NCBI GenBank assembly: GCA_015709715.1 | Contig: CP054184.1 | Coordinates: 3,395,001 to 3,459,000, forward strand | Direction: 5' to 3' | DNA from: Nitrospira sp. | Lineage (GTDB): Bacteria; Nitrospirota; Nitrospiria; Nitrospirales; Nitrospiraceae | Length of the DNA: 64,000 bases | Shown here: positions 46,945-63,974 of the stretch, piece by piece | Layout: the number at the start of each line of letters is the position of its first letter | Position numbering within the stretch: position 1 is the stretch's first letter | Notes under the pieces: generated by a model | Told to the model about the DNA's origin: nothing | The model's database searches: none | Seen by the model: only the letters and a program-made list of their open reading frames with translations | Position numbers and translations under genes: made by a program

Positions 46945-48336
46945 TTATTCGTGCTCCATCTGCTTTTTCAGACGCCGGTCCAAGGCGAAGCGGGTCAGGC
47001 CCAGGTGTTTGGCGGCCAAGGTCTTGTTGTGATCCGAGAGCCGCACAACCTCATCGATGAGGGCCGATTCGATATCCGCCAGAGTCTGTTGGCCGAGCAC
47101 CATTTCGATGCGTAGCGAGGGCTGTGAGCCGGCCGACTTGGCCACCGCGATGTGCGGCGCCTGGTCGTGGAGTTCGCGCGGGAGGCAGCCGGCGGTGAGC
47201 GTCTTATCATGGCAGAGGATCATCGCCCGTTCGATGATGTTCTGCAGCTCGCGAATGTTGCCCGGGTAGTTATAACGCTGGAGCAGTTCCTGGGCGTCGG
47301 GCTCGATGTCGAGCACCTCCTTGCCGAACTCCTTGCCGAACCGCAGGACCGCCTGCATGCAGAGCGGCAGGATGTCTTCCGTGCGCACGCGGAGCGGCGG
47401 CAACTCGAAGGTCACCACGTTCAGGCGGAAGTAGAGGTCTTCGCGAAAGGTGCCCCGCGCGGCTTCCTTCTTGAGGTCGCGGTTGGTGGCGGTCATCAAT
47501 CGGAAGTCGACCGACAAGTCTTCCGTGCCTCCCAAGCGGCGGAACGTGCGCTCCTGCAGGACGCGCAGCAGTTTGGCTTGCATGGCTTGGTCCAGATCAC
47601 CGATTTCGTCGAGGAACAGGGTCCCGCCTTCGGCCTTTTCCAGCAGCCCGCGTTTTCGCTGGTGGGCGCCGGTGAAGGCGCCGCGTTCGTAACCGAACAG
47701 CTCGCTTTCAAACAGTTCCTTGGGAATGGCGGTGCAGTTCACCGCGACGAAGGGGCCTGTGGCGCGGGGGCCGTTACAGTGGATGACGCGGGCCAGGAAT
47801 TCCTTACCGGAGCCCGTTTCCCCTTGGAGCAGCACGGTCGATTTGGCGTTTTGCGCCACGTCGCGCACCTGGCCGAGCAGGAGTTGCATGGCCGGGCTGC
47901 GCGCATCGATGTTGGAGAGGGCGTAGGGGCTGTTCTGGTCCTCCATGGAAAATTCCACCCGATGGCGCAAGGCGAGGAATTCGAGGGCGCGATCGATGAC
48001 CGGGTCCAGGCCTGAAAGGTCGACCGACTTGATGAGAAAATCATAGGCGCCGAGTCGCATCGCCTCGACCGCGTCTTCCACAGTGCCGTAGGCGGTCAAC
48101 ATCACGACCAAAGTCTGTGGAGCGATAGGGCGAATTTGCCGGAGTGTTTCCAGTCCGCCCATGCCGGGCATTTTCAAATCCAGGAGGATGAGATCGGGCA
48201 AATGTTGGGTGACCGCCCTCACCAAGTCTTCACCCGATTCGAATCCCGCCACCGCGTGTTGGCGCCGCGAGAGGCGCTTGACGATGGCGGTGCGTATGGC
48301 TGGTTCGTCATCCGTGACGTAGATCGTGGCCCGCAT
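46945..48336 (-). CDS. Sigma-54-dependent response regulator (second in the NXR island)
   Basis: 463 residues from ATG 48336 (MRATIYVTDDEP; AGGAG upstream); the longer frame to 48531 lies within the kinase gene. Receiver Asp is in LLDLKMPG. The AAA+ domain is intact: GETGSGKE, GAFTGA, GTLFLDEIGDL and FREDLYFRLNVV. The C-terminal Fis-like HTH reads NKTLAAKHLGLTRFALDRRLKKQ. It overlaps the CHASE3 kinase gene by 29 bases, so the two form a two-component system. A sigma-54-like promoter lies across the divergent region in front of the FNT gene, a plausible target. Confidence 0.92.
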   Translation of the reverse strand: MRATIYVTDDEPAIRTAIVKRLSRRQHAVAGFESGEDLVRAVTQHLPDLILLDLKMPGMGGLETLRQIRPIAPQTLVVMLTAYGTVEDAVEAMRLGAYDFLIKSVDLSGLDPVIDRALEFLALRHRVEFSMEDQNSPYALSNIDARSPAMQLLLGQVRDVAQNAKSTVLLQGETGSGKEFLARVIHCNGPRATGPFVAVNCTAIPKELFESELFGYERGAFTGAHQRKRGLLEKAEGGTLFLDEIGDLDQAMQAKLLRVLQERTFRRLGGTEDLSVDFRLMTATNRDLKKEAARGTFREDLYFRLNVVTFELPPLRVRTEDILPLCMQAVLRFGKEFGKEVLDIEPDAQELLQRYNYPGNIRELQNIIERAMILCHDKTLTAGCLPRELHDQAPHIAVAKSAGSQPSLRIEMVLGQQTLADIESALIDEVVRLSDHNKTLAAKHLGLTRFALDRRLKKQMEHE

Positions 48337-50287
48337 GGTACTCCTCTCCCTGCATCCGTTGCAGTTGCAGTTGTTGTCGTAGGGGACACCAGACGCGCAC
48401 GGTAGTCCCGACCCCGAGGTCACTCTCCAGTGCCAAGTCGCCCCCGTGGGCATCGAGGATATTGCGGCAGATGGCGAGCCCCAACCCCGTTCCTCGAGGT
48501 TTGCCGCTCGTGAAGAAGGGTTCGAACACATGCGGCAGGTGGGCGGGGCTGATCCCCTGGCCGCGATCCGTCACCGTGACTTCTACCCCCGCCTCCGTTC
48601 TTCGAGTCTGTAAGCCTAGGGCCAAGCTGATGGTGCCTCCCGGCGGCGTGGCCTCGATGGCGTTTTGAATCACGTTGAGCAGTACCTGCTTGAGCTGATC
48701 CCGATCGGCTTGAATGGGGTACGGCGCGGACGGCGCAGCAACCTTGGCCGTGACCTTCCGGCTGCTTAGGGGTTCATCCAGCACCTTGATGACCTCTTGC
48801 ACCAACTGGGCCATGTCGAACGGCAACGCGACGATTTCGCGCGGACGCGCATAGTCGATGATCTGGTTGACGATGCGATCCAACCGCTTGGTTTCCTGCA
48901 AAATGACTTCCAGGTCGGGACGACGGGGGTCCTGCGGTTCGGTATCGTCGAGGAGGAGCATAGTGGTGGAGCCGATCCCGACGAGCGGGTTTCGGATCTC
49001 ATGGGCGATGCCGGCCGCCACCTGACCGAGCGTCGCCAACCGTTCCGCCCGGCTCAGCCTGGTCTGCATGAGGTCGAGCGCGGTGATGTCCACATTGAAG
49101 CCTTGGTACATCACCACCTGGCCTGTCGCGTCGCGGATCGGAATGCGCCGGCTCAAGACCTTTCGAACCGTACCGTCCGCATGGAGGAACCGAAAGACCG
49201 TTTCGTACGACCGGCCCTCGTTGACCGCTTGCGCGAATTCCGCGATGACACGGTCCCGGTCGTCGGGGTGAATCGCACGCCGCACGGCATCGGGATCCTT
49301 TTCTTCGCTCGGGTCGAGGCCAGCCAAGACGCTGTTGTACCGGTTGCTGAACACGAGCGTCATGCCGCGGGTGGTGAAGATGCCGAACGGGGCATGGTCT
49401 ACGATGCTGCGGTACTTGGCTTCGGAGGCGACCAAGTCCTGGTTGAGCTGGCGCAAGTCGGCTTCCGACTGCTCCACCGTCGCCACGTGCGATTGAATGG
49501 CTGTGCTCATGGCATGGATCACGCGGGAGAGGTTGCCGATTTCATCGGTCCTGGTCATGAGGGGTACCTGGGGAACGAGGTTCGCTTCCGACGGCACCAC
49601 GGCCTTGGCCAGCCGCTTGAGCGGGGTGGTGATCGAGCGGGCGATCAGGTGCAGGCTTCCGACCATGCAGATCAGCGCGAACAGGCCGCCGCCGAGAATG
49701 GTCATGAGCATGTCGTCGCGGTCCTGGGCCAATTTCGCCAGACGTTGATTCAAGGCCGCTTGCGCCAGGTGTTCCAGCCGACCCATGTCCTGCCTGATCT
49801 TCAGCATCAGCGAGCGGCCCTTACCCTCTTCGATATACAACCGCGCCTCTTCCGTATGCTCCGCCTTCACAGCCTCGATCAAGAGTTCCTTTTCTTCGAT
49901 GAATTGCTTCACCAGCTGTTGAATGGATGCGATCAAGTCCCGCTGGTCTTCATAGGGGGACACCTGCGCTTCCAGGGTACGCCCCAGGTTCAGCACGTGG
50001 TCCTGGGCCGTGCGATAGGGAAACAGATAGTGCTCCTGGCTCGTCAGGACGAACCCGCGAAAGCCCGTTTCCAGATCGACGATGAGCCGCAGATATTCCG
50101 ATGCCAGGCGTTGCGAATAGTAGATGTCGTTGAGCTGGCCTTCATCGTCGGAGAAGGTCGTGACGCTGCGATAGGTCAAGACGCTCAAGATCAGGATCGT
50201 CAGCGCAGGAATGACCAACGCAAGAAACAGCTTGCGGGCGATAGGCAGATTGCTTAGCAGGTCGCTCACGTGACCTCGACGATTCAT
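48308..50287 (-). CDS. CHASE3-HAMP-PAS sensor histidine kinase
   Basis: About 659 residues from ATG 50287 (MNRRGHVSDLLSNLPIARK); GTG 50269, with GAGGT upstream, is an alternative. Transmembrane helix 1 is LFLALVIPALTILILSVLTY. A CHASE3-type helical sensor (DLETGFRGFVLTSQEHYLFPYRTA) follows, then transmembrane helix 2 (MLMTILGGGLFALICMVGSLHLI), HAMP, PAS, HisKA (AAGIAHEIRNPLVGIG) and HATPase (NVIQNAIEATPPGGT, GTGLGLAICRNILDAHGG). It is the partner of the sigma-54 regulator it overlaps. The same CHASE3 pattern recurs in the kinase-less protein at 63190. Confidence 0.9.
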   Translation of the reverse strand: MNRRGHVSDLLSNLPIARKLFLALVIPALTILILSVLTYRSVTTFSDDEGQLNDIYYSQRLASEYLRLIVDLETGFRGFVLTSQEHYLFPYRTAQDHVLNLGRTLEAQVSPYEDQRDLIASIQQLVKQFIEEKELLIEAVKAEHTEEARLYIEEGKGRSLMLKIRQDMGRLEHLAQAALNQRLAKLAQDRDDMLMTILGGGLFALICMVGSLHLIARSITTPLKRLAKAVVPSEANLVPQVPLMTRTDEIGNLSRVIHAMSTAIQSHVATVEQSEADLRQLNQDLVASEAKYRSIVDHAPFGIFTTRGMTLVFSNRYNSVLAGLDPSEEKDPDAVRRAIHPDDRDRVIAEFAQAVNEGRSYETVFRFLHADGTVRKVLSRRIPIRDATGQVVMYQGFNVDITALDLMQTRLSRAERLATLGQVAAGIAHEIRNPLVGIGSTTMLLLDDTEPQDPRRPDLEVILQETKRLDRIVNQIIDYARPREIVALPFDMAQLVQEVIKVLDEPLSSRKVTAKVAAPSAPYPIQADRDQLKQVLLNVIQNAIEATPPGGTISLALGLQTRRTEAGVEVTVTDRGQGISPAHLPHVFEPFFTSGKPRGTGLGLAICRNILDAHGGDLALESDLGVGTTVRVWCPLRQQLQLQRMQGEEYHAGHDLRHG

Positions 50288-50379
50288 CGGTATCGTAGTC
50301 TTCAGCCCTATCCTTGTGCAACTTCGAGACCCGGCGCCATGGAGAAGAACGCCAAAGTCGCGCGAGGAAATGAGCGCTT

Positions 50380-50400
50380 TCGCACAATGCGCTCGTGCGA
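50380..50400. promoter_or_regulatory. Inverted repeat, candidate enhancer site for the FNT gene
   Basis: TCGCAC-N9-GTGCGA is a perfect inverted repeat, overlapped by another, GAGCGC/GCGCTC (50372-50394). It lies about 120-140 bases upstream of the sigma-54-like promoter at 50521. The core TTCGCACAATGCGC recurs with one change (TTCGCACAGTGCGC) at 63877-63890. Confidence 0.5.
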
Positions 50401-50520
50401 TCTCGCCCGTGGAGTCGAGGCTCGATTCCCGATCGATCCGGCTGGCGGACGGTCCGAGCGAGGGCAAAGAAGGGGGCTGCCTGTAGGATTCGACGATGTC
50501 GCGACGCAGGAGTCGGACGT

Positions 50521-50536
50521 CGGCATGGGGCTTGCT
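50521..50536 (+). promoter_or_regulatory. Sigma-54 (-24/-12) promoter for the FNT transporter gene
   Basis: CGGCAT-GGGGC-TTGCT, with GG and GC exactly 12 bases apart (first G to first G) as required, and a full TTGCT -12 box. The predicted transcript would start near 50547, 70 bases before the FNT start. Confidence 0.6.
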
Positions 50537-50616
50537 CAATCAGGCTGTCGTCAGAGGATGTGATGACACGGATGGCGGGGAACCTGGAGGAGTGGACGGC
50601 GAACAAGGAGGACGCG

Positions 50617-51498
50617 ATGGACTACGTGAAACCCTATGGCGTGGTGGACAGCATGTTAGCCGGCGGCGCGTTGAAGCTCAGTTTGCCTCCGCGCCAACTC
50701 ATGTTGCGCGGCATGCTCGCCGGAGCCTACTTGGGCATCGGCACGAGTATGGCCGTGACGGCTGCGGTTGAGACGGGCTATTGGATCGTCGGGAGCCTCC
50801 TGTTTCCCTTCGGGTTGGCCCTCGCCATCCTCCTCGGCGCGGAGATCATCACCGGCAGTTTTGCCCTTCTCCCGGTCGCGGCTGCCGACGGCCAACAGAA
50901 TGCCGGCCTGCGCCAGGTGTTCGCGAATTGGAGCTGGGTGTTTCTCGGCAACCTGTTGGGGAGCACGGCCTATGCGGGCCTGTTTGCGATCGCCCTCACT
51001 ACGGCGGGCGACGCGCAGATCAACGCAGTGGGGATCAAGCTCATGGCGATCGCGGAGGCCAAAACGAACTATTACGCTTCGCATGGTGCGTCCGGTCTCT
51101 TGGCCGCTTTCACCAAGGGCATGCTCTGCAACTGGATGGTGAGCCTGGCAGTGGTGGCGGCCTATATGTCCACGTCGTTTTCAGGGAAGATCCTGGCCAT
51201 CTGGGGGCCGACCCTGCTGTTCTTCTCGCAAGGGTTTGAGCATGCGGTGGTGAATATGTTCTTGATTCCCATCGGCATGCTGCTGGGCGCGCCCATTACG
51301 GTGTCCACCTGGTGGCTTTGGAACCAGATTCCGGTGACGTTGGGGAATTTGGTGGGCGGCATGTTGTTCACGGGCTTGGCGATGTATGCGGCGCATCGCG
51401 TCGTTGCCCCAGTTTCGGCACCGCAGCCCCAGGCGACGATGGCGTCTGACGGGGCGGCCGCACGGGCGGATCGCCCGGGGTATTCTCCTTCGTTCTGA
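50617..51498 (+). CDS. Formate/nitrite transporter (FNT) family channel
   Basis: 293 residues, six transmembrane helices. ATG 50617 (MDYVKPYGVVDSML) is set by AAGGAGG five bases upstream. FNT features are LPPRQLMLRGMLAGAYLGIGTSMA, GAEIITGSFALLP, FANWSWVFLGNLLGS, FTKGMLCNWMVSLAVVAAYMS, FFSQGFEHAVVNMFLIPIGM and NLVGGMLF. The family includes NirC and FocA; the substrate is most likely nitrite here given the NXR context, but that is inference. It begins a plus-strand run with the efflux genes and is divergent from the CHASE3 kinase. Confidence 0.9.
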   Translation: MDYVKPYGVVDSMLAGGALKLSLPPRQLMLRGMLAGAYLGIGTSMAVTAAVETGYWIVGSLLFPFGLALAILLGAEIITGSFALLPVAAADGQQNAGLRQVFANWSWVFLGNLLGSTAYAGLFAIALTTAGDAQINAVGIKLMAIAEAKTNYYASHGASGLLAAFTKGMLCNWMVSLAVVAAYMSTSFSGKILAIWGPTLLFFSQGFEHAVVNMFLIPIGMLLGAPITVSTWWLWNQIPVTLGNLVGGMLFTGLAMYAAHRVVAPVSAPQPQATMASDGAAARADRPGYSPSF

Positions 51499-51510
51499 GT
51501 GAGGCCTTTG

Positions 51511-53109
51511 ATGGCGGCGGTGTACTTGAGGCGGTTACGTGGATGGCGGTTCGTGCTGTTCAACGCCGTCCTCGGCCTGTCTCACATCGTGGTGCTGTTC
51601 AACGCGGGGTCGTACATCGCCCTCCTGCCGCACGTGTCGGGAGACTTGGGGGGAGTCTTACCCAGTTTTGTCACATGGGCGCAGACCGACTTCATGGTGG
51701 GGCTGGCACTCGGCTTTCCGCTGGCTCGCTACCTGTCAGGGCGGATCGGCGACTATCGGCTGTTGATCGGCGCCTTCATGGTGTACAGCGTGGCTTCCTA
51801 CCTGTGCGGAGACAGCCAGACCCTCACCCAATTCGTCCCGGCTCGCATCGTCCAAGGCATCGCCGGCGGCATCACCTTGCCGATCGCGCAGACGATGTTG
51901 CTGAACGAATATCCCAAACGGCTGAAGGCGGTGGCGCTCACCGTTTGGGGCCTCTTCAGCATCACGCCCTTCACGATCGGCATGCCGGTCGGCGGCTACA
52001 TCGCGTACATGCTCGGTTGGCGATTCCTGTTCTACCTGGATTTCGTGCTCACGTTGATCATCGTCGGTACCCTGAGCGCGCTCCTCTACGGGCGGGGATT
52101 CCGGCGGAGCTACGGTCGGTTCGACGCGATGGGGTTTCTGCTACTGGCGATGTTGTTGTTGGGGTTGCAGACCCTGCTCAACATGGGGAACGATTTCGAT
52201 TGGCTGGATTCGCCGTTCCTCCAGGCCATCCTGGTGGTGCTAGTCATCGTCTTTCCCTGTTTCATCATTTGGGAGTTGGGCGAGCGGCACCCGATCCTCG
52301 ACCTTCGCCTGTTTCTGCATCGCAATTTCCTGATCGGCGTCATCAGCCTCACGCTTGGCTTCTTTGCCGTTCAGGGATTGTTGTCGTTGTTGATCGTGCA
52401 GATCCAGTTGCTGCTGGGCTATTCGTCCAAATTGGCGGGCTTGGCGTTGCTGCCGTTGGTGTTGTTGGGGGCGCCGGTCATTGCGGTCATGCATTATCTC
52501 TGTAAATACATCGATGCACGCTGGTTGATTTGTTTGAACAGTCTCGGATTTGCCTGGGTTTTTTATTGGATCGGCCTGTACGACGATCCCCATTCATACG
52601 AGGAGTTGTTTTGGCCGATGGTCATGGAGGGGATTTTCCTGGGATCGTTTTTTACACCTGTGACGGTGCTGCTCCTGCATGGACTGTCAGGCCCCCTGGT
52701 CACCCGTGCAGCCGAGGTTGCGAATTTATTGCGTGTTGCTGCCGGCGCATTCGGCATCACGTTCCAGGGCATCGTTCTGTTCCGGAGGAAATATTTTCAC
52801 CAACTGCATTTGGCCGATCATTTCGGTGGACGGCAGTGGACCTCATTCGACCCGCTGGAGCGTCTGGCAGACAAATTCAGCGCTGCCGGGCTCAGTCCGT
52901 CGGAGATCCAGGGTAAATTTGGTGCCCTGATCAAACAACAGGCGGCGATTCTCGGCATGAACGACGCCTTTCTGGTCGCCAGTTTTTTGTTCATTGGTTT
53001 AGGCCTGTTAGTCTGGTTTGCGCATCCGACTCACTTGCCGTTGTCTCCGACCTCTGCCGATGAGTTGCGGGAGATGCGCGCGGAAGAGTTGATCGAGGAG
53101 GTGCCATGA
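51511..53109 (+). CDS. DHA2-family MFS efflux transporter (EmrB-like)
   Basis: 532 residues, about 14 membrane helices, with MFS motifs such as LARYLSGRIGDYRLLIGAF (motif A) and ARIVQGIAGGITLPIAQTMLLNEYP. ATG 51511 (GAGG upstream) is preferred to GTG 51499. It overlaps the outer-membrane factor gene by 4 bases (ATGA). With the channel and the HlyD-type adaptor downstream it forms a tripartite EmrAB-TolC-like exporter. The substrate is unknown. Confidence 0.88.
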   Translation: MAAVYLRRLRGWRFVLFNAVLGLSHIVVLFNAGSYIALLPHVSGDLGGVLPSFVTWAQTDFMVGLALGFPLARYLSGRIGDYRLLIGAFMVYSVASYLCGDSQTLTQFVPARIVQGIAGGITLPIAQTMLLNEYPKRLKAVALTVWGLFSITPFTIGMPVGGYIAYMLGWRFLFYLDFVLTLIIVGTLSALLYGRGFRRSYGRFDAMGFLLLAMLLLGLQTLLNMGNDFDWLDSPFLQAILVVLVIVFPCFIIWELGERHPILDLRLFLHRNFLIGVISLTLGFFAVQGLLSLLIVQIQLLLGYSSKLAGLALLPLVLLGAPVIAVMHYLCKYIDARWLICLNSLGFAWVFYWIGLYDDPHSYEELFWPMVMEGIFLGSFFTPVTVLLLHGLSGPLVTRAAEVANLLRVAAGAFGITFQGIVLFRRKYFHQLHLADHFGGRQWTSFDPLERLADKFSAAGLSPSEIQGKFGALIKQQAAILGMNDAFLVASFLFIGLGLLVWFAHPTHLPLSPTSADELREMRAEELIEEVP

Positions 53110-54605
53110 CCGCCGTGCGACGAAGCGTGTGGTCCGGTTTCGCGCTTGCGGGAGCTCTCTGGTGTGCGAGCTGCGCCTGGATTCCCAAAGGTGATCCCCC
53201 CGCGGAGTACATCGAACCGCCGGAGATGAAGGAGACCCTGGCCGAGGTCACCCATCGCCTGCAGCAGTGGCCCGACGATCGTTGGTGGGAACAGTTCGGG
53301 AACCCGGAATTGAATGACCTGATCGAAACCGCCCTCAAGGACAACCCCGGGCTGAAAGTGGCTTCCGCACGGCTCCGCGAGGCGACGGCGATGGTGAAGG
53401 TGGAAGGCGCGCGGCTGTTGCCGTTCCTGGAAGCCGACGCATCTCTCACCTATGAGCGACTCTCGCAACACGGTGTCTTTGCCGCGTTGAATCCGGAAGT
53501 CGCCGGGGTGCAGTTCATGCTGGGCATCATCAATCCCCTGAGTTTCCGGTATGAATTCGACTTCTGGGGAAAGAATCGGGCCATGCTCGAATCGGCGCTG
53601 GGCCATGCCGCAGCCGAAGAGGCGGAGATGGCGGAAGTGCGCCTGCGGCTGACCACCGGTATTGCGCGGGCCTACTTCCGAGGCCAGGCGCTCCGGCAAC
53701 AGTTCGACATCGTCAAGACCATCGTCGGCATCCGCCGGGATCTGCTCAAGCTGGCGGAAACGCGGTTTCGTCTCGGGCTGGATAACGACCAGCCGGTGAA
53801 GGTGGCCGTGGCGGACTACGAGGCGGCGTTCAAGCGGGAGGCGGCGGTCCGTGACCAGTTGGACGTGCAACGGCACTTGATCGCCCGGTTGGCCGGCAAG
53901 GGGCCCGACGAGGCGATCCATCTGTTTGCCAAACCGGCGGCGGTGATTCCTTCGCAGATTTCGGCGCCCGATCACCTATCCATCGGCCTGTTGGTGCATC
54001 GGCCCGACCTGGCCGCCGCGCTCTACCGTGCCTATGCCGCGTCGAAATTGGTGAAGGTGGCCAAGACCCGGTTCTATCCCACCATCGACCTGACCGGCTT
54101 CGTGGGATTTAACGCGCTGACGCTCACGAAAGGGGCGGATAAACTGGCCAACTTCCTGTTCAGCGGACAGAGTTTCTCTTACGGCCTTGCACCGGGGCTG
54201 CGCATTCCCTGGTTCGAGGGCGGCCGGCTTCGAGGGGAATTGGCGGCACAACGCGCGGAATACGATGCGGCGGTGGAACTCTACAACGACACGCTGTTGG
54301 ACGCCATGCGCGAGGTGGCGGACAGCCTGAGCGCCTGGCAAACGACCGGGGAGATGATGGCCTCGCATAAGCGCTTGCTGGCCTCCTTGAGCGACGACTG
54401 GCGGTTGGCCAAAGTTCGGCTGGTGAGCGGCCTCGATGACGACCGCGAAGTGCTACGGCATCGGCAGCCGGTGCTAGAGCAGGAATATGCCTTGCGGGCG
54501 TTGGAGAGCGACCAGTTGGTCGCCGCGGTCGATCTCATCGAGTCCCTGGGCGGCGGCTATCACAACCCGGACATCACGAAACGGCCGGCACATAACCCGA
54601 GTTGA
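53106..54605 (+). CDS. NodT/OprM-type outer-membrane efflux lipoprotein
   Basis: 499 residues. The N-terminus (SGFALAGALWCASC-A) resembles a lipoprotein signal. Two outer-membrane-efflux repeats are visible, including RWWEQFGNPELNDLIETALKDNPGLKVASARLREA and the second-half LVHRPDLAAALYRAYAASKLVKVAKTRFYPTIDLTG. It provides the outer-membrane duct for the MFS pump and adaptor on either side, and follows the pump gene with a 4-base overlap. Confidence 0.88.
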   Translation: MTAVRRSVWSGFALAGALWCASCAWIPKGDPPAEYIEPPEMKETLAEVTHRLQQWPDDRWWEQFGNPELNDLIETALKDNPGLKVASARLREATAMVKVEGARLLPFLEADASLTYERLSQHGVFAALNPEVAGVQFMLGIINPLSFRYEFDFWGKNRAMLESALGHAAAEEAEMAEVRLRLTTGIARAYFRGQALRQQFDIVKTIVGIRRDLLKLAETRFRLGLDNDQPVKVAVADYEAAFKREAAVRDQLDVQRHLIARLAGKGPDEAIHLFAKPAAVIPSQISAPDHLSIGLLVHRPDLAAALYRAYAASKLVKVAKTRFYPTIDLTGFVGFNALTLTKGADKLANFLFSGQSFSYGLAPGLRIPWFEGGRLRGELAAQRAEYDAAVELYNDTLLDAMREVADSLSAWQTTGEMMASHKRLLASLSDDWRLAKVRLVSGLDDDREVLRHRQPVLEQEYALRALESDQLVAAVDLIESLGGGYHNPDITKRPAHNPS

Positions 54606-54608
54606 ACT

Positions 54609-56156
54609 ATGACGACCAATCAAACCGACACCAGTACCAGTGCTCCTGAACCATCCGGCGGGTCTCCGACGGCGGGGCCCGCTCGGCTCCGCCCCAAGGC
54701 CATTCGCGCCCGCCGCAATCGGCGCCTCTTGATGGTAGCCTTGCTGGTTCTGCTCACCACCATCGGTTATCTCGTCTTTTGGTGGACGCACGACCGTCAT
54801 TGGGTCAAGACCGATAACGCGTATGTCACCGGGAACCTCGTGCCGGTCGCGGCGCAAGCCACCGGCATCGTCACCCACGTACTGGCGGAAGAAACGCAGT
54901 TCGTCAATCGCGGCGACCTGATGATTCGCCTGGACGAACACCTGGCTTACGCAGCGTTAGGCCGGGCGCGCGGACGGCTGGGCGAAGAAGTCCGGCGCAT
55001 CGCCGCGCTGTTCATGACCAGAAAACAGCTGGCGGAAAAACTGGTGTCCCGGACTGCGCGGCTGGAGTTGGCTCGCCACGATATGGATCGCTATCAAAAG
55101 GCCGTGCCGAGCGGCGCGGTGTCGAAGCAAATCGTGCAGAATACGGCGGATAAGATCTTGGCGTTGGAAGCCGAGGTGCGGGAGACGCAGGCCGAACTCG
55201 ACACCCTCGATGCCCAAATCGGCGGCACGACGGTGACGGAACATCCCGCGGTAGAGTTCGCCAAACATCAGCTCATCGAGGCGTATCTCGAGTATACGCG
55301 GCAGCAGATCCGCGCCCCGGTGTCCGGGTATGTGGCCAAACGGAAGGCGCAGGTCGGCGACCGTGTGAGTCCCGGCGCGCCGCTCATGACGATCGTGCCG
55401 TTGGACCACCTGTGGGTGGAGGCGAACCTGCGCGAAACCGAATTGCAGCACGTGCGGCCGGGACAGCCGGCGCTCGTGAACGTGAGCATGTACGGGAGCC
55501 GGCAGACCTTCCATGGCACGGTCGAGGGGTTGGTGCCTGGAAGTGGCAGCCCCTTTGCGCTGCTGCCGCCCGATAATTCCACGGGCAACTTCATTCACAT
55601 CGTTGAGCGGGTGCCGGTGCGGATCGCGTTGCCGGCGGAAGAAATTCGCGAACACCCGATCAGGCCGGGCCTGTCGACCGTGACGAGCATCAATGTGTCC
55701 GAGTCCGGGCAGTCCGTGTGGACATCCCTCGCGACTCCCTCCACGGCGGAATATGAAACGGATGTGTATGCCGACGAGTTGCCCACGGCGGAATCCATCG
55801 CGAACGAAGTGATGGAGACTAATCTGGTGATCGCCGCCTCGGACGCCGCCGGCGGTCTCGCGACGGTCAGATCTGTCGTTCAAGCAGAGCCGCAGAAGCC
55901 GACGGCCGGGGGACTGCGATCCGCTCACGGTGAATTCGGACAAACCGGTTCGGCGCGCAGGCCAGATCAGTTCGATCGGGAACGTGAGACGCTGATTCCA
56001 CCACGGAGTCCGGACCTCGGCCGGTCGACTCACCCGCTGGCGCCCTCCATTGGTCCGGGATCCGGCCTTCTGGGGCCTGAAGGGGGGCGGAGTCCGTCCC
56101 GCTTGCGCTCCGACTTCGAGCGGAGCCAACGCTCGCGCCCCCTCGAATTGCACTGA
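54609..56156 (+). CDS. EmrA/HlyD-type adaptor with an extended C-terminal tail
   Basis: 515 residues. One N-terminal membrane helix (LLMVALLVLLTTIGYLVFWW) leads to the biotinyl-lipoyl-like domain (KTDNAYVTGNLVPVAAQATGIVTHVLAEETQFVNRGDLMIRLDE), a coiled-coil hairpin, and IRAPVSGYVAKRKAQVGDRVSPGAPLMTIVPLDHLWVEANLRET. Homology to EmrA runs to about residue 405 (YETDVYADELPTAESIANEVMETNLV). The last 110 residues are Arg/Pro/Ser-rich, unstructured, and not expected in the family. They may reflect loss of the normal stop codon. The gene is three bases after the channel gene. Confidence 0.87.
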   Translation: MTTNQTDTSTSAPEPSGGSPTAGPARLRPKAIRARRNRRLLMVALLVLLTTIGYLVFWWTHDRHWVKTDNAYVTGNLVPVAAQATGIVTHVLAEETQFVNRGDLMIRLDEHLAYAALGRARGRLGEEVRRIAALFMTRKQLAEKLVSRTARLELARHDMDRYQKAVPSGAVSKQIVQNTADKILALEAEVRETQAELDTLDAQIGGTTVTEHPAVEFAKHQLIEAYLEYTRQQIRAPVSGYVAKRKAQVGDRVSPGAPLMTIVPLDHLWVEANLRETELQHVRPGQPALVNVSMYGSRQTFHGTVEGLVPGSGSPFALLPPDNSTGNFIHIVERVPVRIALPAEEIREHPIRPGLSTVTSINVSESGQSVWTSLATPSTAEYETDVYADELPTAESIANEVMETNLVIAASDAAGGLATVRSVVQAEPQKPTAGGLRSAHGEFGQTGSARRPDQFDRERETLIPPRSPDLGRSTHPLAPSIGPGSGLLGPEGGRSPSRLRSDFERSQRSRPLELH

Positions 56157-56329
56157 AGGGCGGGGCGCCCACGCGCGGATTAAATTTCTCTTAATGAGGC
56201 GGCAACGCTGGATTAAGGATTCCCACCGAACCTATCATGAGACCATGCGGTTCGACGGCGGCGAGGTCGAGCCGATGACGCGTCGCCCATCGTCGCGATC
56301 CTTCTGCGTCCCGCCTTCGAGGTGTAATC

Positions 56330-57850
56330 GTGCGCAACGTCGATCTCAGCTACCGAACGCTGCTGTCGGTCACCAACGTGTTGAACTCCCAACGCGATCG
56401 GCAAAGTCTCTTTCGCGCCGTCGTGGATCAGCTTGCCCACGTCGTTCGGTGGGAACGGGCGGGGATCACGGTCTATGACCTGGAGTCGGATGCGTTTCGG
56501 TTCTATGCCGTTGAAACGAACCTTCCCAAGGTGGTGTTGCGCAGCGACGCCATGATTCCCCGTGCCGACAGTGCCGTAGGATGGGTCTACGATCACCAGC
56601 GTGTTCATGTGCGCCCGCATCTTCAGCGCGAGCGCCTATTCATCGAGGACGAGAGTTACCTCGCCGAGGGATTGGGGCGGATGATCAACTTGCCGATGGT
56701 GGTGCAGGACGATTGCCTGGGCACCTTGAACATCGGCAGCGTCGAGGAGGGCCCGCCCGATCCGGAGGATGTCGAGTTCCTGCAGCAGGTCGCGACGCAG
56801 ATCGGGTACGCCATTGCGCAGGTGAATGCGTATGAGGAGATCAATCGGCTGCGCGAGCAGTTGGCGCAAGAAAATGTATATCTGACGGAAGAACTACGAT
56901 CCAGCCAGGACTATGGCATCGTCGAAGGACGGAGCCGGGCATTCGAGCAGGTACTGACGCTGGCGCACCGGGCCGCGCCGACCACCGCCACCGTGATGCT
57001 GACCGGCGAAACGGGGACGGGGAAGGAGGTCATGGCGCGCGCGATTCATGAATGGAGCGCCCGTCGGACCCGAGCATTTGTTCGGCTGAACTGCGCGGCG
57101 CTCCCTGCCGGCCTCATCGAGAGCGAATTGTTCGGCCACGAACGTGGTGCCTTTACCGGAGCGGACCGGCAGCGCGTGGGCCGTTTCGAACTGGCCGATG
57201 GCGGTACCCTCTTCCTGGACGAAATCGGCGAAATGCCGTTGGAGGCCCAGGCCAAGCTTTTGCGAGTGCTGCAGGACGGGTTGGTGGACCGCGTCGGCGG
57301 TACGAAGCCGGTTCCGGTAGATGTGCGGGTCATTGCCGCGACCAATGCCGATCTGCGGGCGGCGATTGCGCAGGGGCGTTTCCGCAGCGATCTGTACTAT
57401 CGTCTGAATGTGTTTCCGATCCACTTGCCGCCGTTGCGCGAGCGTCCCGAAGACATCCCCTCCCTCGCGCGACATTTTCTCCGCCACCATGCCCAGCGGC
57501 TCAAACGAGTGTGTCACGATGTCGAGGCCGCGTCGATGGAGCGTTTGGTGCAGTACGCCTGGCCCGGCAATGTGCGCGAGTTGGAGAACCTCGTCGAGCG
57601 GGCGTTGATCCTGTGCCACGAGCAGATCCTGCGGATCGACCCGGCGATGGTGACGCTCCCCCTCGCCGCCGAGCCCGCGGCCGGACGGACGCTCCAGGAC
57701 GAAGAGCGGCGTCACATCCTGAAAGTCTTGACCCTCGCCGATTGGCAAATCGAAGGTCCCGGCGCCGCCGCCGAACAACTGGGGTTGGCGCCGAGCACCC
57801 TCCGAAGCCGCATGCAGAAATTGGGGATCCGTCGCCCCGCTCGCCTGTAA
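56330..57850 (+). CDS. GAF-domain sigma-54-dependent activator beside nxrAB2
   Basis: 506 residues, GTG start with GAGGT upstream. An N-terminal GAF sensor domain (about 10-165), typical of NorR/FhlA/NifA-type activators, replaces a receiver. A short coiled coil follows, then an intact AAA+ domain: GETGTGKE, GAFTGA, GTLFLDEIGEMP and FRSDLYYRLNVF. The C-terminal Fis-like HTH reads GAAAEQLGLAPSTLRSRMQKLGI. It senses a ligand directly and needs no kinase. It lies immediately upstream of nxrAB2, across a 467-base region with palindromes and a sigma-54 promoter, and probably controls that operon. The GAF ligand is unknown. Confidence 0.92.
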   Translation: MRNVDLSYRTLLSVTNVLNSQRDRQSLFRAVVDQLAHVVRWERAGITVYDLESDAFRFYAVETNLPKVVLRSDAMIPRADSAVGWVYDHQRVHVRPHLQRERLFIEDESYLAEGLGRMINLPMVVQDDCLGTLNIGSVEEGPPDPEDVEFLQQVATQIGYAIAQVNAYEEINRLREQLAQENVYLTEELRSSQDYGIVEGRSRAFEQVLTLAHRAAPTTATVMLTGETGTGKEVMARAIHEWSARRTRAFVRLNCAALPAGLIESELFGHERGAFTGADRQRVGRFELADGGTLFLDEIGEMPLEAQAKLLRVLQDGLVDRVGGTKPVPVDVRVIAATNADLRAAIAQGRFRSDLYYRLNVFPIHLPPLRERPEDIPSLARHFLRHHAQRLKRVCHDVEAASMERLVQYAWPGNVRELENLVERALILCHEQILRIDPAMVTLPLAAEPAAGRTLQDEERRHILKVLTLADWQIEGPGAAAEQLGLAPSTLRSRMQKLGIRRPARL

Positions 57851-57918
57851 GTCATGCTCGTGATCCGCTGACCTCACGGTTGCCGCTTCCGCCCCATTCT
57901 CCCTTCATCATTCATGTT

Positions 57919-57988
57919 CCACGAATATTCGTGGTGGCGCCGTGTCCAGCCACCACGCGTTGTCGTGGCTTCGCGCTCGTGGCCACGA
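57919..57988. promoter_or_regulatory. Pair of palindromes, candidate enhancer sites for nxrAB2
   Basis: CCACGAATATTCGTGG (57919-57934) and TCGTGGCCACGA (57977-57988) are perfect palindromes sharing the CCACGA/TCGTGG half-site, with a further TCGTGG at 57963-57968. They lie about 75-140 bases upstream of the sigma-54 promoter at 58061, the normal distance for an activator binding region. Confidence 0.55.
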
Positions 57989-58060
57989 CGCGATCCCGCA
58001 CCGACCGATCACAGGCCGATATTTCAATGATCTAGGCGACAGGTCCAGGATCCTCCTTCG

Positions 58061-58076
58061 TGGCACACGGTCTGCA
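58061..58076 (+). promoter_or_regulatory. Sigma-54 (-24/-12) promoter for nxrAB2
   Basis: TGGCAC (58061-58066), 5 bases, CTGCA (58072-58076): a perfect -24 box and a -12 box with the invariant GC at correct spacing. The predicted start near 58088 gives a leader of about 230 bases before nxrA2. Confidence 0.65.
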
Positions 58077-58317
58077 CAGCGGGGGCTCGTGATTTTTTAT
58101 TCATCGCTGTTCATTTCGAGGGCGTGTGGCTCCGGGCGCAGGGACTGCGCCGCGCCGCGTTGCGTCGTGACCGGCTGCCGAGGCGGCGGAGAACCATGCG
58201 TCTGGAAAGGGGTGGGTCGACGGGCTGTGTCTGCCGGTCATTCGCATTCCAGCAAGCGGCGTCCCTTGTGTGTGACGTCGCATATTCGTTCCGTACTTTT
58301 ATGAGGAGGTGTTCAAC

Positions 58318-61300
58318 ATGCAGTTATCCCGCAGGCAGTTTCTGAAGGTCTCGGCGGGGACGGTCGCGGCGGCGGCCATTGCCGACAAGGCATTGGCATT
58401 GACCGCGCTCCAGCCCGTCGTCGAGGTCGACAATCCTCTGGGCGAGTATCCGGACCGGTCGTGGGAGCGCGTCTATCACGATCAGTATCGGTACGATTCG
58501 TCCTTCACCTGGGTCTGTTCACCGAACGACACGCATGCCTGTCGTATTCGGGCCTTCGTTCGGAACGGCGTGGTCATGCGCGTGGAGCAGAACTACGACC
58601 ACCAGACCTATGAAGATCTCTACGGTAACCGCGGGACGTTCGCGCACAACCCGCGCATGTGTCTGAAGGGCTTCACGTTCCACCGCCGCGTGTATGGTCC
58701 CTATCGTTTGAAGGGGCCGTTGATGCGCAAGTCGTGGAAGCAGTGGATGGACGACGGCTCGCCGGAGCTCACTCCCGATGTGAAGCGGAAATATAAGTTT
58801 GATGCCCGGTTCCTGGATGACATGATCCGGGTCTCTTGGGATACGGCCTTTACCTACGTGGCCAAGGCCATGATCGTGATTTCCACCCGGTACAGCGGTG
58901 AAGCCGGAGCCCGCCGCCTGCGCGAGCAGGGGTATGCGCCGGAGATGATCGAAATGATGAAGGGCGCGGGCGTGCGCTGCTTCAAGCACCGCGCGGGCAT
59001 GCCGATCCTGGGTATGATGGGCAAACATGCCAATACGCGATTCAACAATTGCGTGTTGCCGCTGCTGGACAGCTGGGTGCGGAAGATCAACCCCGATCAG
59101 GCCCAGGGCGGACGTTATTGGAACAACTATACGTGGCACGGCGATCAAGACCCCTCGCAACCGTGGTGGAACGGCACGCAGAACTGCGACGTCGATCTGT
59201 CGGACATGCGGTTCACCAAGCTGAATACCAGCTGGGGCAAGAATTTCGTCGAGAACAAGATGCCGGAAGCACACTGGAAGCTGGAGAGCATGGAGCGGGG
59301 CGCACGCCTCGTTATCATTACGCCGGAATACAATCCGACGGCCAGCCGCGCCGATTACTGGATCCCGGTGCGTCCGGAGACGGACGGCGCCTTGTTCCTC
59401 GGCAGTTGCAAAATCATTTTGGACGAGAATCTGCACGACATCGATTTCATCAAGGGGTTCACCGACATGCCGCTGCTGGTGCGGACGGATACCTTGCAGT
59501 ATCTGGATCCGCACGAAGTGGTGAAGGACTATCAGTTGCCGGACTTCTCCAAGTCTTACTCCGGCCGCGTGCAGGGCTTGACCAAGGAGCAGATTCAGCG
59601 CCTCGGCGGCATGATGGTGTGGGATCAGGCCAAGGGCAAGGCCGTGCCTCTGCATCGTGAGCAGGTCGGCCACCATCTGCAGGAGAGCGGCATCGATCCG
59701 GCCTTGACCGGCACCTATCGGGTCAAGTTGCTGAACGGGCGGGAAGTGGACGTGATGCCGATTTTTCAGCTGTACCAGGTGCACCTCCAAGACTACGACC
59801 TGGACACGGTGCATCAGGTGAATCGGTCGCCGAAAGACCTGATCGTCCGCTGGGCGCGGGATTGCGGCACGATCAAGCCGGCGGCCATCCACAACGGCGA
59901 AGGCGTCTGCCACTACTTCCACATGACCTCCATGGGACGGGCGGCGGCCTTGGTCATGATGCTGACCGGCAACATCGGTAAGTTCGGCACCGGATGCCAT
60001 ACCTGGTCGGGCAACTACAAGGTCGGCATTTGGCAGGCAGCGCCGTGGTCCGGCGCGGGCGCCAGCGTGTATCTGGGTGAGGATCCCTGGAATCTGAACC
60101 TCACGACCGATGCGCACGGCAAGGAGATCAAATATCGGAAGTACTATTACGGCGAAGAGCCAGGGTATTGGAACCACGGCGACAACGCGTTGATCGTCAA
60201 CACGCCGAAATACGGGCGCAAGGTGTTCACCGGCAAGACCCACATGCCGAGCCCCAGCAAAGTCCGCTGGGTCGTGAACGTGAACATTTTGAACAATTCG
60301 AAGCACCACTACGACATGGTGAAGAACGTCGATCCGAACATCGAGATGCTGGTGACGCAAGACATCGAGATGACGTCCGACGTCAACCATGCCGACGTGG
60401 CCTTTGCGGTCAACTCCTGGATGGAGTTCACCTATCCGGAGATGACCGCGACGGTGTCGAATCCGTGGATTCAGATTTGGAAGGGCGGCATCCGTCCGCT
60501 GTACGACACCCGGAACGATGCCGACACCTTCGCGGGTGTCTCGGCGAAACTGAAGGAGCTGACCGGGGAAGCCCGCATGGCCGACACCTATCGGTTCGTC
60601 TATCAGAACCGCATGGACATCTACGTACAGCGCATCCTCGATGCGTCGACGACGTTCTACGGCTACAGCGCGGACGTCATGTTGAAGTCGGAAAAGGGCT
60701 GGATGGTCATGTGCCGCACCTATCCGCGGCATCCGCTCTGGGAAGAGACTAACGAGTCCAAACCCCATTGGACACGATCGGGACGTCTGGAGTCCTATCG
60801 GATCGAGCCAGAAGCGATCGAGTACGGGGAAAACTTCATCGTGCACCGGGAAGGCCCGGAGTGTACGCCGTACCTGCCGAACGCTATCATGTCGACCAAT
60901 CCGTACATCCGCCCGGATGACTACGGCATTCCCATCACGGCGCAGCACCATGACGACAAAACGGTGCGCAACATCAAGCTGCCGTGGCAGGAGATCAAGC
61001 GGCATCCGAACCCGTTGTGGGAGAAGGGCTACCAGTTCTACTGCGTCACGCCCAAGACCCGGCACCGGGTGCACAGCCAATGGTCGGTGAACGACTGGGT
61101 GCAGATTTACGAGTCGAACTTCGGCGATCCCTACCGCATGGACAAGCGGACGCCGGGTGTCGGCGAGCATCAGTTGCACATCAACCCGCAGGCGGCGAAA
61201 GACCGCGGCATCAACGACGGCGACTATTGTTTCGTCGACGGCAACCCGGTGGACCGGCCCTATCGCGGCTGGAAACCGTCGGATCCGTTCTACAAGGTCG

Positions 61301-63874: not shown

Positions 63875-63907
63875 GATTCGCACAGTGCGCATAGTGCGGA
63901 TTCGCAC
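63875..63907. promoter_or_regulatory. Repeat cluster resembling the FNT enhancer motif
   Basis: GATTCGCAC occurs at 63875-63883 and 63899-63907, 24 bases apart, with two GTGCG copies (inverted half-sites) between. TTCGCACAGTGCGC (63877-63890) matches the 14-base core upstream of the FNT gene with a single change. The cluster lies about 50-85 bases before a sigma-54-like promoter. Confidence 0.55.
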
Positions 63908-63958: not shown

Positions 63959-63974
63959 TGGTACATGATTTGCT
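63959..63974 (+). promoter_or_regulatory. Sigma-54 (-24/-12) promoter candidate at the right edge
   Basis: TGGTAC-ATGAT-TTGCT has correct GG/GC spacing and a full -12 box, with one mismatch in the -24 box. The gene it would drive lies outside the window to the right. Confidence 0.5.

Follow-up and report, generated by a model that had tools for sequence, protein, structure and literature searches.

The window analyzed here is a 64,000-nucleotide stretch of the single 4.16-Mb contig that makes up the genome of a Nitrospira sp., and its forward strand encodes a 293-aa anion channel of the FNT family (50617..51498; PF01226, 2.8e-61) whose closest solved structure is LCIA (7.4e-31). The start codon is most likely the ATG at 50617, behind the Shine–Dalgarno sequence AAGGAGG (50605..50611, +), with 6 of 7 alignment columns at 50604-50610 invariant. 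The channel gene is the first of a four-gene operon that also encodes a tripartite MFS efflux pump: 12 nt downstream follows a DHA2/EmrB-type MFS exporter (51511..53109, +; PF07690, 1.9e-25), then an outer-membrane efflux factor (53106..54605, +; family assigned from reading the sequence alone), whose gene overlaps the exporter gene by 4 nt and stands at the same place in relatives, and finally an HlyD/EmrA-type adaptor (54609..56156, +; PF13437, 3.3e-19). The exporter fell just short of the cut-off of the DHA2/EmrB permease model (TIGR00711, 229.8 vs 230.2 bits). As in EmrAB-type pumps, a DHA2 MFS exporter (EmrB-like), an HlyD adaptor, and an outer-membrane factor are thus encoded in one operon; unlike in these systems, the Nitrospira pump genes are preceded by an FNT gene and a predicted sigma-54 promoter. 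Likewise, this channel differs from NirC, FocA, and LCIA in sharing its operon with a tripartite pump. The genus set of 29 genomes yielded 26 full-length FNT orthologues with 86–91% identity, spread over 25 of the genomes, and the order FNT-MFS-OMF-HlyD was observed in the 14 genus loci that extend far enough. The same order was found at 18 of 21 loci outside the genus; two others end at contig ends (L129, L145) and one has no pump nearby (L147). Because this order is conserved, channel and exporter would be controlled jointly by the promoter. In one genome (G008, L149:10096-12257), the FNT operon looks eroded: FNT is reduced to an 88-residue fragment and MFS is incomplete, whereas HlyD is matched at full length.

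On the reverse strand, a divergent operon encodes a CHASE3-HAMP-PAS histidine kinase (48308..50287; PF05227 3.9e-20, PF02518 1.3e-28; HEIRNPL at 429), whose real start may be a GTG at 50269, and an NtrC-family response regulator (46945..48336), the proposed activator. The regulator combines a receiver, an AAA+ sigma-54 domain, and a Fis-type helix-turn-helix (PF00072, PF00158, PF02954), and displays the motifs LDLKMPG at 52 (receiver), GETGSGKE at 172 (Walker A), and GAFTGA at 219. The original prediction of a CHASE3 kinase next to an intact sigma-54 response regulator is therefore borne out by both domains and motifs. Its recognition helix, LG[LMI]TRF[AS]LDRR, was shared by all 49 regulators that were compared. 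The genome contains one sigma-54 (rpoN) gene.

Upstream of the FNT gene, we located a predicted sigma-54 (−24/−12) promoter at 50521..50536 (+; CGGCATGGGGCTTGCT). Its letters agree with the TTGCT box and correctly spaced GGCAT that had been proposed: GG at 50522-50523 and GC at 50534-50535 lie at the correct 12-bp spacing (10 bp between) in a sequence near TGGCAC-N5-TTGCW, with a full −12 box, and the promoter geometry yields a predicted +1 at ~50547, the same start as in the original prediction. The site matches the consensus at 9 of 11 positions and is among the weaker examples, with C for T at consensus position 1 and T for C at position 6. The window by itself is no proof of a promoter, since equally good sites are expected by chance: 9 sites with ≤1 mismatch to TGGCA-N6-TTGCW were found vs 6.97 expected, and 31 of 100 shuffles were as good. 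Across the genus, all 26 orthologues displayed a site scoring ≥9/11 with GG-N10-GC, 93–112 nt ahead of the start codon, while dinucleotide shuffles gave an expectation of 0.41, these counts coming from related and hence non-independent sequences. Outside the genus, we considered 20 upstream regions (19 of them from family members and one, L082, on a Nitrospirales contig; L146 and L147 were left out), 19 of which scored ≥9 vs 0.49 expected, including eight perfect 11/11 matches. These sites were found at −71 to −99, often as a perfect TGGCAC-N5-TTGCT; the best match of L129 (−195), although among the 19, is off position and lends no support, and the one region below the threshold (L136) still reached 8/11 at the expected place. 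This comparison supports the prediction that the channel gene is likely under sigma-54 control.

The divergent operon has a putative sigma-54 site of its own (50317..50332, −; GGGTCTCGAAGTTGCA; predicted +1 ~50306). The −24 box of the window copy is a poor match (7/11 for the site by our own count) and the commonest form among relatives is AGGCGGCAAAGTTGCA, yet GG-N10-GC ending in TTGCA was kept in 26 of 26 aligned rows. Between the two promoters, the original prediction had placed overlapping inverted repeats at 50372-50400, and these are present (GAGCGC 50372-50377/GCGCTC 50389-50394 and TCGCAC 50380-50385/GTGCGA 50395-50400) within a block conserved in the alignment of 26 regions, TGAGCGATTTCGCACCGTGCGCCTGTGCGATCTCGCCCG. 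We evaluated column conservation in 20 non-redundant rows (near-identical rows removed, median identity 0.53; the alignment row “kinase coding/RBS” was an artefact and was excluded). Invariant columns amounted to 25 of 37 in the upstream footprint, 11 of 16 in the FNT promoter, and 7 of 16 in the kinase-side site, vs 0 of 112 and 0 of 39 in the spacers. The conserved block is best read as two 14-bp dyads of the form GWGCGR-N2-YCGCWC with centers 23 bp apart, i.e., GAGCGC-TT-TCGCAC (50372..50385, no strand) and GTGCGA-TC-TCGCCC (50395..50408, no strand), both found in the alignment and the former also with exact variants in other genera. The dyad centers are located ~145 and ~168 bp upstream of the predicted FNT start and ~72 and ~95 bp upstream of the predicted kinase-operon start, distances at which one enhancer could serve both promoters. 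The conserved site of the kinase operon likewise suggests that the dyads probably serve both.

Dyads with ≤1 mismatch were detected at 24 of 26 genus loci (all except L008 and L013). Outside the genus, 14 of 22 loci displayed exact dyads, one a dyad with one mismatch, and seven none (L082, L127, L129, L141, L145, L146, and L147), the dyad definition, like the composite pattern described below, having been set after part of these sequences had been seen. The longer inverted repeat TCGCAC-NNN-GCG-NNN-GTGCGA has a single exact occurrence in the 4.16-Mb genome, at FNT. Looser matches in this genome (≤3 mismatches) numbered 200 vs 144 in a reversed control, and are therefore mostly chance. Across the genus, the exact 24-mer was found at 21 places in 20 genomes, every one beside FNT; the remaining five FNT places match it with 1–2 mismatches, while most other matches have three.

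A third putative target lies at the edge of the window, where a dyad (GTGCGGATTCGCAC; 63894..63907, no strand), with like sites in relatives, precedes a candidate sigma-54 site (TGGTACATGATTTGCT; 63959..63974, +) and a 33-aa ORF whose start lies immediately beyond the end of the window (L209:4030-4131; genome C1, about 3459028). We searched the family set (175 genomes, genus included) with a composite of a dyad, 50–80 nt, and GGCA-N6-TTGC: matches were obtained in 53 genomes vs 0 of 175 in the reversed control. The pattern was drawn with some of these matches already in view, namely the FNT site in genus g15 and the kinase sites in G042 and G046. The regulator is present in 48 of these 53 genomes. 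Many of the other matches stand before a short ORF whose 33-residue product is of the MVRMIKKVGDRELAWVMLAVAAVALWSTWGLAS kind. Since no long ORF came after these extra sites, a small RNA was considered, but an ORF with codon-position bias explains them better: in eight sequences, variable sites at codon positions 1, 2, and 3 numbered 11, 6, and 26. The encoded single-span membrane protein matched no Pfam or NCBIfam model. It occurs in 36 of the 175 genomes, and FNT is also present in 34 of those.

A few additional dyad-promoter pairs were observed. At L227:1399-1514 of the window genome (C1, about 1129136), an exact dyad and a sigma-54 site without mismatch at any scored position (TGGCACCCCTGTTGCT) stand before a 154-aa exported-looking ORF. 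At L229, the pair is weaker and no 150-aa ORF accompanies it. In the FNT-less genome G035 (L213:6043-6742), the same dyad-promoter pair stands before a 211-aa ORF. Near its start, this ORF has a GDRELFW segment resembling the 33-aa protein, and it then continues into a longer part. In N. defluvii (G001, L208:6751-7384), a second pair faces the small-protein gene from its opposite side and stands before a 151-aa ORF.

Next, we evaluated the linkage between regulator and channel. Full-length regulator orthologues were detected in 24 of the 29 genus genomes, and in both the window genome and G001 the regulator start lies ~2.3 kb from the FNT start. Outside the genus, the regulator was near FNT at 12 of 20 loci (L127-L146), in eight divergently, in one upstream on the same strand, and in three behind the efflux genes; L127 and L145 have a GAF-type activator, not the NtrC-type regulator, near FNT. 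In G046, kinase (L174) and FNT (L136) are unlinked, and the dyad was found at both. Across the family set, the regulator was detected in 41 of the 46 genomes with an FNT orthologue (E ≤ 1e-70) vs 46 of the 129 without, and outside the genus in 18 of 21 vs 45 of 125. In those 46 genomes, the regulator is present although this FNT is absent, and most of the kinase genes examined in FNT-less genomes (20 upstream stretches) show no dyad. Taken together, these comparisons lend good support to the proposal that the neighboring regulator would be the natural activator of the channel gene.

The GAF-type sigma-54 activator of the window (56330..57850, +; PF00158, PF01590) is encoded in the interval that separates the FNT operon from nxrA. 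We considered whether its gene belongs to the FNT operon, which would create a cascade to NXR, but a gap of 250–487 nt before it in 11 relatives and a conserved CCTATGAT-like block speak against this, and with such an upstream region of its own the gene is probably outside the operon. The block itself (56130-56330, ending CCTATGAT-like in 11 relatives) is possibly the promoter of this activator gene. At nxrA, a predicted sigma-54 site (58061..58076, +; TGGCACACGGTCTGCA) displays TGGCA[CT]..TGCA in 12 of 12 sequences and is preceded by an upstream element with CCACGA/TCGTGG repeats (57919..57988, no strand), a candidate site for the neighboring GAF-type activator. Nitrite transport had been proposed to fall under the same class of control as NXR: this holds for the sigma-54 class and the neighborhood, but not for the upstream element, which at nxrA is unlike the FNT dyads, so that the activator is probably not shared. 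Outside the genus, the FNT module was near nxrA at only one of 20 loci. Published work also locates NifA-like regulators, and others that depend on sigma-54, close to nxr in Nitrospira (PMC6606698; PMC7522533).

Several readings compete with activation of the FNT operon by the adjoining regulator. The channel gene could be sigma-54 dependent with another enhancer-binding protein as its activator, chiefly the GAF-type regulator, which lies close upstream of FNT in L127/L075 (the same genome region) and L145 and, at 11 loci of the genus, behind the operon, and a first look yielded 119 regulator relatives in the genome. We consider this improbable: the dyads are located between FNT and the kinase gene, with like dyads before the kinase and small-protein promoters, the element adjoining the GAF-type gene is of a different sequence, and the very loci with a GAF-type activator near FNT (L127, L145) have no dyads. 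Slightly less credible is a scenario in which the regulator controls its own operon only and the FNT site owes its conservation to some unrelated sigma-54 activator. Its retention in 46 of 129 FNT-less genomes does imply duties without FNT; however, FNT operons with no adjoining kinase gene still have the dyad (L136, L139), channel, dyad sites, and regulator co-occur, and the 33-aa gene, with the same kind of site where examined, shares the genome with FNT in 34 of the 36 in which it occurs.

Least credible of all, and very unlikely in our view, is a chance match at the FNT promoter with a real sigma-70 promoter elsewhere. Although such sites are expected by chance in the window alone, conservation at a fixed place in all 26 orthologues against the 0.41 expected, with invariance limited to the site, argues otherwise, and a simple scan of 50200-58400 yielded 0 sigma-70 sites vs a mean of 1.6 in shuffles, which is weak evidence. 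That the regulator encoded at 46945-48336 controls the FNT operon through sigma-54 is the reading we favor and consider probable.

The identity of the channel was evaluated at the level of family and substrate. In addition to the PF01226 match, the pore Thr and His are conserved (motifs GAEIITGS and GFEHAVVNMF), and by motif the protein shares with FocA the pore residues Thr91, His209, Glu208, Asn172, Asn213, Asn262, and Lys156 (FocA numbering), while Glu replaces Asp88 and Ala replaces Ser210. It scored below the cut-offs of both curated equivalogs, with 67.8 bits for NirC (NF008595, cut-off 293) and 115.7 for FocA (TIGR04060, cut-off 290.1); LCIA, the nearest solved structure, is an algal bicarbonate channel. 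Four relatives from other phyla with 48–53% identity adjoin nitrite/sulphite reductase genes (L083, L084, L085, L096), and a tally that took 55 of 87 neighbor ORFs included nine nitrite/sulphite reductase proteins, although these NIR_SIR neighbors could be sulphite reductases. The second FNT of the genome (41% identical) is located behind a molybdopterin oxidoreductase read from its sequence as a formate dehydrogenase. Because of these reductase neighbors and the position of the second FNT, nitrite is the best guess and most likely the substrate, with formate ranked below it since the other FNT stands behind the formate-dehydrogenase-like ORF. A role in assimilation or in nitrous-acid defence would fit better, and the adjoining pump favors defence.

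From the sites, their conservation, the gene order, and the intact domains, all of which can be read directly in the sequences, we infer binding, activation, transport direction, and signal as follows. The CHASE3 kinase would sense an envelope or periplasmic signal and phosphorylate the NtrC-type regulator. The 330-bp region between kinase and FNT genes would act as a shared enhancer between two outward-facing sigma-54 promoters, with the phospho-regulator binding both GWGCGR-N2-YCGCWC dyads and, through looping and ATP hydrolysis, opening the promoter of the kinase-regulator operon, as a feedback, and that of FNT-MFS-OMF-HlyD. It would also activate the gene of the 33-residue single-span membrane protein ~13.5 kb away, and this protein may serve the channel or the pump as a subunit for regulation or assembly. 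The phospho-regulator most likely turns on its own operon, the FNT-efflux operon, and the small protein via the dyads. If the channel carried nitrite or nitrous acid and the pump exported a toxic compound, the whole would amount to a nitrite- or envelope-stress response, a role that we regard as possible and, on balance, doubtful.

This arrangement resembles that of ZraSR/zraP in Escherichia coli, where, according to published reports, the regulator binds the spacer between two divergent units, autoregulates, and has few targets (PMC8249747, PMC7657598). In both systems, the kinase-regulator operon and its target are divergent with sites in the shared spacer, and the Nitrospira locus displays divergent predicted sigma-54 promoters around one shared enhancer, a likeness of architecture only. 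Orthology is not indicated: kinase and regulator do score on the ZraS and ZraR models, but at 188.4 bits vs 479 (ZraS) and 338.8 vs 760 (ZraR), and AtoC/AtoS models score higher. Moreover, the sensor domain is CHASE3, and the target is a channel and efflux operon rather than a periplasmic zinc-binding chaperone. We therefore suggest that the FNT module may work like ZraSR/zraP while, by curated scores, not being a member of that system.

In soils, waters, and treatment plants, nitrite oxidation is driven by Nitrospira, yet few aspects of gene control in these bacteria are known to have been demonstrated experimentally. In titles and abstracts on Nitrospira sigma-54 promoters, enhancer-binding proteins, transporter regulation, and response regulators, we did not find this circuit, which is no proof of its absence in print. 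Overall, the finding appears to grow into a small conserved regulon with a known architecture and unusual contents. Tentatively, and as a serious candidate, it may represent a dedicated and undescribed sigma-54 regulon of the Nitrospiraceae, in which a CHASE3 kinase and NtrC-type regulator would drive their own expression, a nitrite-type channel with a tripartite pump, and 33-residue proteins of a new family, and which would serve nitrite oxidisers as a nitrite/nitrous-acid defence circuit, apart from but beside the NXR switch. A conserved and well-defined enhancer-promoter module, together with the regulator that probably activates it, a channel, a pump, and a tiny new protein, would provide a concrete and testable circuit in bacteria whose genetics are difficult, and one in which the control of nitrite transport would be separated from the control of nitrite oxidation.
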